From: a virus
Strand: one strand, 5' to 3'
DNA: 22,838 nt
IMG/VR virus record: IMGVR_UViG_3300046499_000319
Span: 1-22,838 of that record
Shown here: in pieces, positions 17,423-19,891 of the stretch
Numbering within the stretch: position 1 is the stretch's first letter
Layout of the letters: every line of letters starts with the position of its first letter
Notes under the pieces: model-generated
Told to the model about the DNA's origin: nothing
What the model saw: only the letters and a program-made list of their open reading frames with translations
Databases searched by the model: none
Program-made: the position numbers and the translations under genes

Positions 17423-17528
17423 CGTACGCAGGCCCGCGCGTGCGTCCGTCGGCCCCACTACCGCGACGCCGGTAGCGGGAAGGGCCCGCCGCCGGCGTCA
17501 TCACCCGCGCAGCGCGGTGGGCCGAACG

Positions 17529-17568
17529 GAACGGCCCCGGTACCTACCGTGAGGTACCGGGGCCGTTC
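17529..17568 (+). terminator. Strong hairpin terminator of the cargo operon
   Basis: A 17-bp perfect stem (17529-17545 with 17552-17568) closes a 6-nt loop (ACCGTG). It is the longest perfect hairpin noticed in the window. Only short T runs follow on the plus strand. Lying between the plus-strand cargo operon and the minus-strand acyl-CoA synthetase fragment, it may stop transcripts in both directions. The ~100 bp before it (17423-17528) contain further small GC hairpins (for example CTACCG/CGGTAG near 17460-17475) but no gene that I can support. Confidence 0.75.
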
Positions 17569-17594
17569 TCTGCCCTGCCGCGCATTTCCCCAGG

Positions 17595-17843
17595 TCACGC
17601 CGCGAGTGTTTTACCTACGTTGCTGCACATCAACGTGCCCAAAACACTTCCCTCGGTTACTCCAAGGTCATCGCGTAGGGCGTGGGCGAGCTGCGCGGCG
17701 CGGTCGCCTATCTCGGCGAACGTACGGCGCTGCGGCTCGCCCTCACCGGTCCATGTGATCACTTGCGAGGTGCCGTGGGCGGTCCGGCCGTGCTGAAGAA
17801 TCCGGCTGATCAGAAGCGGTACGTCCTGCATGGTTCCCTGCAC
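17595..17843 (-). pseudogene. Phage-borne 5' end of an acyl-CoA synthetase gene
   Basis: An 82-codon frame that looks like the N-terminus of a long-chain fatty acyl-CoA synthetase (AMP-binding, FadD-like): MQDVPLLISRILQHG, RRTFAEIGDRAAQLAHAL, then LGTLMCSN, after which it diverges and stops (GKTLAA, TGA). The ~500-residue remainder, including the AMP-binding motif, is absent. GTG 17843 is the likely start because AGGAGG lies 6 nt upstream (17850-17855); ATG 17831 is the alternative. Family members typically continue as GTLMWNN at the point of divergence, and that point is the centre of the attP palindrome. So this is not random debris: it should complete the host gene after integration. On its own it cannot make an active enzyme. 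Confidence 0.8.
17605..17648. other. Putative attP of the serine integrase
   Basis: A 44-bp imperfect palindrome centred on 17626/17627. The outer arms AGTGTTTT (17605-17612) and AAAACACT (17641-17648) match perfectly, as do the inner arms ACGTTG (17617-17622) and CAACGT (17631-17636); the 4-bp spacers differ. Size and the two-block symmetry around a central dinucleotide (CA/TG) fit attP sites of large serine integrases. It lies about 270 bp beyond the 3' end of the integrase gene. The centre falls in the TGC codon at residue 73 of the acyl-CoA synthetase fragment, where host genes should have TGG (Trp). The crossover dinucleotide is inferred from symmetry. Confidence 0.75.
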
Positions 17844-17915
17844 GGCTGTCCTCCTGGTAGCTCGCCACGTTGCGACGCGTGCACAGATTCTGCGCACATA
17901 CCAAGCGGTATGTCA
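17844..17915 (-). promoter_or_regulatory. Acyl-CoA synthetase leader with operator-like dyad
   Basis: A perfect 7-bp inverted repeat (ACATACC 17896-17902, GGTATGT 17907-17913) starts 2 bp beyond the integrase stop and lies upstream of the ribosome site AGGAGG. It has the look of a TetR-type operator. A weak promoter may straddle it on the minus strand: GTGACA as -35, an 18-bp spacer holding most of the dyad, then CAGAAT as -10. This would be the control region of the acyl-CoA synthetase gene, carried by the phage and placed in front of the host gene on integration. Promoter hexamers are only partial matches. Confidence 0.5.
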
Positions 17916-19532
17916 CTACTTCTCGGTAGCGTTTTGGGCCACGTCCCACGGGTCCGGTTTCCACAAGGGATGAACCACGATCTCTACGTCCTCCGACCGT
18001 GACCCGTGCCGAGTGAGCGCCACGCGCCGAATGAGCTTGCGATACATCATGTTTCGCTCGCCGTCGTCGAGCGTCGGCCACTCCTCGACTGTGCCGACGA
18101 CGAGCGGTATGAACTCGGCGCGGTCGGGCAGCGGGGCGGTTTCCGGGATGCTGTCGAGGGTGGCTTGTGCCTCTGCCCGCTTGCGTCGGATCACGTTTGC
18201 GGCTTCCTCGTACTCCCCTTCCTCCCACTCGTCCGGGTCGGCCGCGTGTTCAGCACGGAGCCGCGCGAGGGCCTGGCGCTGCTTGTCGACTTCGGCCTGT
18301 GCCCGTGCGCGGGCCCGCATATTGGCGGCCTCTTCCTCGGCGAGGTTCCGCTCGGGAGTGTGCTCGGTGGGCGGGGCGTTGTCGATGCCTGCGGCGGCTT
18401 CGCGTTTGAGCCAGCGGAATACCTCGCGCTCGACGATATGGCGCGGTACGAGAACGCCCACGCACGCGGTCGCTCCGCTCTTGGCGCGGAGGCTGCACCG
18501 GTAGGCCCATCCAGGCACGTTGGCGCCGTCACGGCGTGCGGCGTTAAGGCTGGTCCCGAGTCGGCACGCTGAGCATTTGGCAAGTCCGGTGAGTTCGTAG
18601 ATGCCGACCCGGGAGCGCGGCGCGGTCGCGCGTACCTCTTTGCGCCGCTGCTGGTAGGCATCCCACAGGCCGTAGTCGATGAGTTCCTTTTGAGCACCCT
18701 GGATGTGGACGCGGTTGCGGCACTTGCCGTCAGTCTTGCGGCATCGGCACTCAGGGTTGTGGACGATGAGCAGACCCGCGGGAAAGCCTGAGTCCATGTA
18801 CCGGCTGAGGGTTTCCGTACTCCACAGTGATCCTTGGGTGGTGCGGTGTCCGGCGCGGTTCAGCATGCCGCACAGCGTGTTGAATCCCGTTCCTGCGATG
18901 TACGCGCGGTAGAGGTCGGCGACGGCTGGCCCGATGTCTTCCTGGGGCTCGTACCGCTCTTTCTGTAGCTTCCCCGTCGTCTCGTCGTAGCGGCGGTGCC
19001 ACTCGTACCCGAAACGCTTCCGGCCCTGCGCGGGCAAGTGGAGTTTGTACTTGCGGTGGTCGTGCGTCTCTCGCCACTGCTCGCCGGCGCGGTCGCTCTC
19101 GAACGCCCCGAATTCGAGGATCATGCCGCGCTGGAACCGGCCGATGGCGGTCGAGGCGTCGACGGGTTCTGTCGCGGATTCCAGCTCTCCGCCTGCCTCT
19201 TGGAGGCGGGCGAGGTTCATCGCGTTGCCGGTGCGGTCGCGGCCGAACCGGGAGTAGCGCCATACGGCGACGCCGCGGACTTCGCCGCCCTCGACGCGCT
19301 CGATGCACTGCATGATCTTGCGTTTGAAGTGTCGGCCGGACACGTCGAGGTCTTCGACCCATCCGACGATGCGGCGCCCTGTGCGGCGGGCCCACTGGGT
19401 GATCGCGTCCCGCTGTAGCTCGGGACTGATCTTTTCTTCCTTCCACGTACTGACGCGGATGTAACCGAGCCACGGCTCGCCCTCAGTGTCGGGCGAGCCG
19501 CGGAAGGTGTCGGGCAGTTGTGGTGTGGTCAC
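17916..19532 (-). CDS. int: Large serine integrase
   Basis: A 538-aa site-specific recombinase that should integrate and excise the phage at attP/attB. GTG 19532 is chosen: it overlaps the stop of the upstream gene (GTGA) and has GGAAAG upstream. Resolvase domain: YIRVST with the nucleophile S28, then WRYSRFGRDR (91-100) and the EFGAFESDRAGEQWRE helix (~140-155). The recombinase domain follows (~165-300). A zinc-ribbon segment has C320, C323, C346 and C357. A coiled coil (EEEAANMRARARAQAEVD and on) spans ~398-460. Length is normal. It ends about 270 bp from attP and is co-directional with the carried acyl-CoA synthetase 5' end, so after integration int would lie directly upstream of the rebuilt host gene. 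Confidence 0.95.
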   Translation of the reverse strand: MTTPQLPDTFRGSPDTEGEPWLGYIRVSTWKEEKISPELQRDAITQWARRTGRRIVGWVEDLDVSGRHFKRKIMQCIERVEGGEVRGVAVWRYSRFGRDRTGNAMNLARLQEAGGELESATEPVDASTAIGRFQRGMILEFGAFESDRAGEQWRETHDHRKYKLHLPAQGRKRFGYEWHRRYDETTGKLQKERYEPQEDIGPAVADLYRAYIAGTGFNTLCGMLNRAGHRTTQGSLWSTETLSRYMDSGFPAGLLIVHNPECRCRKTDGKCRNRVHIQGAQKELIDYGLWDAYQQRRKEVRATAPRSRVGIYELTGLAKCSACRLGTSLNAARRDGANVPGWAYRCSLRAKSGATACVGVLVPRHIVEREVFRWLKREAAAGIDNAPPTEHTPERNLAEEEAANMRARARAQAEVDKQRQALARLRAEHAADPDEWEEGEYEEAANVIRRKRAEAQATLDSIPETAPLPDRAEFIPLVVGTVEEWPTLDDGERNMMYRKLIRRVALTRHGSRSEDVEIVVHPLWKPDPWDVAQNATEK

Positions 19533-19891
19533 AACGCTTTCCGTTCCGGTAACTGGCTGATCGGGAACAAGGCAATGACGTTGTCCGCCTCCTCTGCGGC
19601 GGCGCGATGTCCGGGCCCTGTCGGCGCGGTGCTTGCCTGGTCGAGCAGGCCGCGGGCCACGTGGTCGAGGGCGAGGCGGTAGCCGGCGGTGTGTGCGTCG
19701 GCGAGCTGGTCGTCTTGGGCGCGGTGCTCGCCGCGGAGTGCGTTGATGACGACCAGTGGGACGGCAACGACCGTGAGGAAGAACCCGCAACTCATGACGT
19801 CATCGTTTACGCCAAGCAAGCCGATGATGCCGAAGGCCAACCCGGTTCCGAGCAGGCCGTAAGCGAGGTGCGGGGTGTGGTGCTGATTCAC
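19529..19891 (-). CDS. Small two-helix membrane protein upstream of int
   Basis: A 120-aa protein starting at GTG 19891 with GGAGGG 9 nt upstream. Two transmembrane helices are predicted at ~8-28 (LAYGLLGTGLAFGIIGLLG) and ~31-52 (VMSCGFFLTVVAVPLVVINAL), followed by a cytoplasmic helical tail (QLADAHTAGYRLALDHVARGLLDQ). No named family. The stop overlaps the integrase start, so the two are co-translated. A TTA codon lies at 19550-19552, near the 3' end, just before the int start, so slow decoding there could affect int expression. Candidate roles are superinfection exclusion or host membrane signalling; both are speculation. Confidence 0.7.
   Translation of the reverse strand: MNQHHTPHLAYGLLGTGLAFGIIGLLGVNDDVMSCGFFLTVVAVPLVVINALRGEHRAQDDQLADAHTAGYRLALDHVARGLLDQASTAPTGPGHRAAAEEADNVIALFPISQLPERKAL

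Follow-up and report, generated by a model that had tools for sequence, protein, structure and literature searches.

How a phage can integrate within a metabolic gene and yet leave its host that gene is the question raised by a 22,838-bp virus record, IMGVR_UViG_3300046499_000319 (the whole stretch analyzed, hereafter the window), in which a serine integrase gene (int) is followed by the 5' end of a bacterial gene for a long-chain fatty-acid-CoA ligase, here called fadD. The window contains head, connector, and tape-measure genes and is phage DNA. Reading 3' from int on the minus strand, one meets a host-type promoter with a dyad, AGGAGG, GTG, ATG, the fadD N terminus, an in-frame attP, and a hairpin. 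Comparison with related sequences makes it highly probable that the phage brings a minimal module from the 5' end of its target gene, which spares the lysogen the loss of FadD on integration. The integrase would recombine attP with attB inside codon 69 (ATG TG/G, Trp) of host fadD. The host promoter and first 68 codons would be shifted to one prophage end, where they would enter the attP arm, reach a stop after 10 to 14 codons, and be followed by a strong hairpin. The opposite end would carry the remainder of the host gene fused in frame behind 68 phage codons (72 from GTG) with the phage promoter, dyad, and ribosome site. In the lysogen, one fadD would thus be complete and presumably functional, starting with phage-derived sequence under a copy of the host-type promoter.

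Hybrid genes of this form are present in natural lysogens. A scan of genome contigs for the integrase gave 20 Streptomyces loci, and directly after int there is a full-length fadD frame in six (L021 to L024, L026, and L030), only the 3' part of fadD in four (L029, L034, L035, and L037), and neither in the other 10. A seventh lysogen, G024, was found by searching 295 genomes. All seven hybrids have full-length frames (564 to 593 open codons in five genomes), as a preliminary description of the window had proposed, and one hybrid and one orphan 5' end are present in each of the five scan-derived genomes examined and in G024; G001 has one extra, distant hit. Where both lie on a single contig, hybrid and orphan are 38.9 kb (G003), 34.9 kb (G004), and 38.6 kb (G024) apart. 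The orphans read TLMW (five) or TLMC (one) before entering the phage arm and stop 10 codons (five) or 14 codons (one) after TLM; the preliminary description had put the stop of the displaced end at about 10 codons. Phage contig L007 and the Streptomyces sabulosicollis hybrid (L022) are identical in residues through TLM, after which L022 continues with the host WNN. Hybrids L022 and L139 score 654 and 656 bits against NF004837 (long-chain-fatty-acid-CoA ligase; curated cutoff, 476), and PF00501 and PF13193 exceed their cutoffs in both. In all seven lysogens, attB lies in fadD and not in another gene, and the element is inserted within the 5' portion of a protein-coding gene. In all seven hybrids the element supplies the promoter, start, and N terminus in frame, and the original 5' end is displaced (orphans in six of six genomes), which is the arrangement expected of a 5'-end-replacing element. 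The hybrid is presumably expressed and active and would then matter to the lysogen, which may be why the piece has been retained on the phage.

In the captured piece, native-like sequence starts at the int stop codon and finishes at the crossover, and the alignment with host acyl-CoA ligase genes extends to the palindrome center of attP. The TAG of int (17918-17916) overlaps the captured promoter, and TGACATACCGCTTGGTATGTGCGCAGAATC (-35, dyad, and -10) directly follows it. The promoter is the sole one in a consensus scan of 17450-18050 (one found; shuffles gave a mean of 0.1). We compared eight attP-form phage copies, 70 native genes, six displaced copies, and seven hybrids. The native rows are a nonrandom set, consisting of 29 best matches to the G002 displaced gene, one from the G024 search, and 40 hand-picked among the matches listed. 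The string tagtgacat is present in all eight attP-form copies and 65 of the 70 native genes. The -35/-10 pattern was found in seven of eight attP-form, 58 of 70 native, four of six displaced, and four of seven hybrid copies, and the strict dyad was found in 8/8, 61/70, 3/6, and 3/7, respectively. Searched with at most one mismatch, the module GTGACATACC-N4-GGTATG occurs at one site per genome in three genomes, upstream of fadD by position, and at two sites in lysogen G024 (the displaced and phage copies); at the same threshold it was not found in the G171 genome. The dyad was rejected as the mark of a wide regulon, being only upstream of fadD in four of five genomes and absent from the fifth.

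Translation of the piece probably begins at GTG 17843, six bases after AGGAGG, with an alternative ATG at 17831, and the frame closes at TGA 17597-17595 after ten codons that come from the attP arm. Native genes have the same start layout, mostly GTG-CTG-AGC-ACC/G-ATG-CAG, and the earlier estimate of about 72 codons is right when counted from GTG. In the isolated fragment, 45 residues align to the Pfam AMP-binding family below the family cutoff (E = 7e-5; 22.2 bits versus 29.9). The 68 residues before the crossover are 65 to 79% identical to the N termini of the 70 native Streptomyces genes, and the gene is present in 288 of 295 Streptomyces genomes. The features first described in the window, namely, a FadD-like N-terminal frame with a ribosome site, an upstream dyad, and an end near the attP center, recur in related contigs and so are not chance. 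A chance open reading frame was likewise rejected, on the basis of conservation among relatives and hybrids.

Several observations weigh against this account. The prophage ends lie on different contigs in three of six lysogens (G001, G002, and G005), and the lysogens are genome assemblies. The integrases of lysogens L023, L024, L026, and L030 are merely 50 to 56% identical to that of the window, and the strict dyad is missing from four of the seven hybrids. In a tree of 60 codons (with long branches for L074, L076, L080, and L160), a well-supported branch (99/94) sets apart 13 of 15 phage-derived rows, but the hybrid N termini of G004 and G024 group with native genes, outside the main phage group. 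A single capture giving rise to all phage pieces was rejected, as was one clade for all 15 phage-derived rows (p-AU of 0.007). The tree thus indicates that the piece persists on phages and was captured or replaced at least once more.

The preliminary description had allowed that the phage either keeps or retunes control of fadD. Retuning, in which a phage-evolved promoter and N terminus change FadD amount or activity for the benefit of the phage, would fit the well-supported group of phage-derived N termini, the hybrids that lack a strict dyad, and the 64 to 90% protein identity between the phage piece and the piece displaced in the same cell (six pairs). We nevertheless consider it unlikely. 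The dyad fits the native pattern in all attP-form copies, which together with its frequency in native genes points to keeping, and not changing, control, and related phages with a complete gene suggest simple rescue. Keeping is the likelier part of the earlier claim, and retuning goes beyond the evidence. That related phages rescue the same gene by other means (232 codons or the whole gene, as described below) also speaks for rescue.

How recombination would restore the frame follows from the integrase and its site. The integrase has the Resolvase catalytic and Recombinase domains of a large serine integrase (PF00239, E = 3e-21; PF07508, E = 7e-8; both over the cutoff), and its zinc ribbon scores under the cutoff (16.6 versus 25.3 bits); several relatives align only from about residue 75 to 93 onward. 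As for serine integrases, attP is a short palindrome beside int and agrees with attB mainly around ATGTG. Its central TG (17627-17626) opens codon 69 in the count from ATG. The attL and attR of the lysogens place the crossover within or adjoining ATGTG, at the TLM-W codons in all seven. Of the 70 native genes, 61 contain ATGTGGAAC without change, and the other nine encode TLAW (seven) or TLCW (two). Codon 69 is TGC (Cys) in the window and TGG (Trp) in the host, and with the palindrome center placing the crossover at TG of that codon, the hybrid regains Trp; the phage form in L008 and L010 already has TGG. In L016 (2879-2960), an attP-like palindrome with the AGTGTTTT and AAAACACT arms of the window has a different center and no fadD piece.

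Beyond attP, the hairpin may stop transcription from whichever fadD 5' end enters the phage. A hairpin of -24.8 kcal/mol or stronger is present in seven of eight attP-form copies and six of six displaced copies; the exception, L005, offers only 42 bases. The hairpin was not among the terminator-like sites of the consensus scan that gave the promoter, and the terminator-like site of that scan (17667-17651) was set aside, as it falls inside the coding piece. A stop codon and hairpin after the frame, together with its own promoter and ribosome site, could suit a truncated frame acting alone in lytic growth as a peptide of about 80 residues. We regard such a peptide as very improbable, however, as the piece stops at the crossover and the host gene continues the frame in lysogens, the residues directly after the crossover vary among phages (SNV, DNM, DSH, NSA, and NNV), and the remainder is dictated by the attP palindrome.

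Positions of the features in the window (strand as shown; promoter, dyad, and hairpin functions are predicted).
Feature	Position	Strand	Details
Serine integrase gene (int)	17916..19790	-	624-aa frame; Pfam Resolvase and Recombinase matches; relatives
Host-type promoter	17887..17916	-	-35 GTGACA 17916-17911; -10 CAGAAT 17892-17887; spacer 18
Operator-like dyad	17896..17913	-	ACATACC-gctt-GGTATGT, between -35 and -10; putative operator
Ribosome site and probable start	17841..17855	-	AGGAGG 17855-17850; GTG 17843-17841; from the letters
fadD 5' coding piece	17595..17843	-	72 codons from GTG (68 from ATG) to crossover, then CSNVGKTLAA and TGA
attP, imperfect palindrome	17605..17648	-	44 bp, AGTGTTTT...AAAACACT; left half coding; central TG 17627-17626
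Strong hairpin directly past attP	17529..17568	-	About -37 kcal/mol in a 48-base stretch

The piece is also maintained among related viruses. A scan of viral contigs for the integrase gave 18 loci, nine of which have integrases 74 to 100% identical to that of the window. The fadD piece is present in all seven of these close relatives that extend far enough (L004 and L006 end inside int or within 3 bases of it), and it was not seen in the nine distant loci (39 to 52% integrase identity), five of which end within 70 bases of int. We rejected the idea that the piece is common to deposited phages, as it had no match at an E value of 1e-5 in 50,697 phage records; the full FadD protein matches 79 phage records, none by tally from a Streptomyces phage, in a collection that may omit near relatives of the window.

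Purifying selection acts on the coding piece carried by the phages. For five distinct attP-form pieces with the attP arm excluded, dN/dS is 0.146 in frame and 2.0 and 1.9 in the other two frames, and differences at codon positions 1, 2, and 3 number 59, 59, and 225. Among the eight attP-form rows, L003 (matching the window) and L010 (nearly matching L008) were excluded from the phage-only count, and the five-row set also omits L009, identical to the window over the 60 codons used. With the attP arm included, six pieces give 0.156, and native genes give 0.271. Least probable of all, then, is a piece left passively by an old imprecise excision and without a role in lysogens. Its shortness, the end of its coding frame ten codons past the crossover, and the occurrence of more than one capture would fit such a relic. 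However, the one-frame selection already contradicts it, the piece is unbroken in all eight attP-form copies (two of them near-duplicates), all seven hybrids have full-length frames, and the promoter and ribosome site are retained.

Replacement of the 5' end of a target gene is a known kind of solution, described for dusA islands and for SXT at prfC (PMC4482086 and PMC8409611; here and below, published systems are cited from excerpts of the articles). In dusA islands and prophages and in IMEVchUSA3, the original 5' end is carried to the opposite junction and is reunited with the gene when the element excises (PMC4482086 and PMC8409611), and expression after IMEVchUSA3 integration was demonstrated with a lacZ fusion (PMC8409611). 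The window phage likewise sends the original 5' end to the other junction, but its att layout differs from the 21-bp semiconserved att repeats of dusA islands (PMC4482086), with few shared bases. Unlike dusA islands, it relies on a serine integrase, its piece is 72 codons long, and the promoter-dyad of the host gene is copied along with it in conserved form. The integrases of dusA islands are tyrosine recombinases. With a fatty-acid-CoA ligase gene as its target, a serine integrase, and few shared att bases, the window phage works like dusA islands but is outside their family. The integrative conjugative element (ICE) SXT at prfC is of the same 5'-end-replacing kind and differs in being a conjugative element, not a phage, with another target and integrase (PMC8409611). 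As far as the open-access literature searched shows, which leaves out most subscription papers, the use of a serine integrase, the length of the piece, the copied host promoter-dyad, and three solutions at one gene are new.

Other serine integrases offer partial parallels. The SV1 integrase is 47% identical to that of the window, and its attB is inside the CoA-ligase gene SCO4383; SV1 carries no SCO4383 fragment according to the excerpted text (PMC4068962). Both phages thus pair a serine integrase with attB in a CoA-ligase gene, but the SV1 attP stands alone. SCO4383 is probably a paralogue of the present fadD, judging from the attL of L033 and L036; on that evidence we dropped the view that the two are the same gene. 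In L033 (11773-12100) and L036 (11692-11950), SV1-like att arms enter another CoA-ligase-like gene (29 to 33% identical to FadD) at an HIYGLTAL motif, which suggests that several integrases of the clade target a conserved motif in paralogous ligases. Serine integrases of Mycobacterium abscessus prophages have attB inside reading frames, with a 5- to 8-bp common core, and three such sites are said to disrupt the gene (PMC8092301); the window phage shares an attB within a reading frame and, in contrast, restores its target. An R4-type attB is found within an acyl-CoA synthase gene (PMC6549336), a likeness by target gene class alone and an analogy only.

Related phages appear to solve the same problem at a second site, near codon 230 of fadD. 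In G041 (L135 to L137), the phage has its crossover near codon 232 and brings the promoter plus 232 codons of fadD; its integrase is more Raleigh-like (60 to 61% identity) and only 45% identical to that of the window. On two G041 contigs there are a complete hybrid, a native 5' piece, and a piece in attP form, an arrangement most readily explained by two tandem prophages. In four other lysogens (G171, G299, G300, and G301), the native 5' part extends to about codon 230, and 142 to 155 bp later a complete fadD lies on the phage side, just inside attR; at the other prophage end, int precedes the 3' part of native fadD (the two ends of G299 are on separate contigs). Reading G171 as the scar of a lost prophage was dropped, as both its integrase and the opposite end of fadD are present in L029, at a distance of about 40 kb. 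The four complete phage genes (L134 5457-7097, L146 to L149, and L196 to L198) are 87 to 93% identical to one another and 74 to 78% identical to two native proteins. They read PQFHCNSWG at the attB position, where two natives and five hybrids read FHV(N/L)AW, and the altered FHCNSW motif perhaps avoids self-targeting.

The attP arms and center of Darolandstone (L132) and Raleigh (L133) resemble the G171 att sites. Both phages are predicted to integrate at about codon 230 of fadD; no fadD was found in Streptomyces phage records. A patch beside int was sought in SV1, Raleigh, and Darolandstone and was not seen in their int-attP gaps. In L025 (11869-12350) and L027 (11656-12106), integrases about 50% identical stand directly before a full exonuclease III frame. 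It looks as if a TTG start and a ribosome site (AGGAGcatgttTTG) come from the attP arm in L027 and L014 (7800-7900), which would be the same trick in much abbreviated form.

Serine-integrase sites within genes have been described as disrupting or potentially disrupting (PMC8092301 and PMC6549336). The opposite case is seen here, by sequence and in natural lysogens: a selected in-frame patch with a copy of the host control region. Moreover, related phages differ at one gene in how long the patch is, where attP lies, and whether the whole gene is rescued, which makes the cost of integration testable. An SV1 int-attP vector is unstable in Streptomyces venezuelae and the lysogen is stable (PMC4068962), a puzzle on which the patch bears, and int-attP vectors built from such phages without the patch would break fadD. 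We suggest only tentatively that one clade of Streptomyces phage serine integrases may have settled on one widespread metabolic gene with graded rescue (promoter and 72 codons, promoter and 232 codons, or a whole replacement fadD with an altered attB motif), such that a lysogen would have a lipid gene replaced, in part or entirely, by a long-lived phage allele. If true, this would amount to a kind of lysogenic conversion, with possible effects on the lipid and secondary metabolism of the host.
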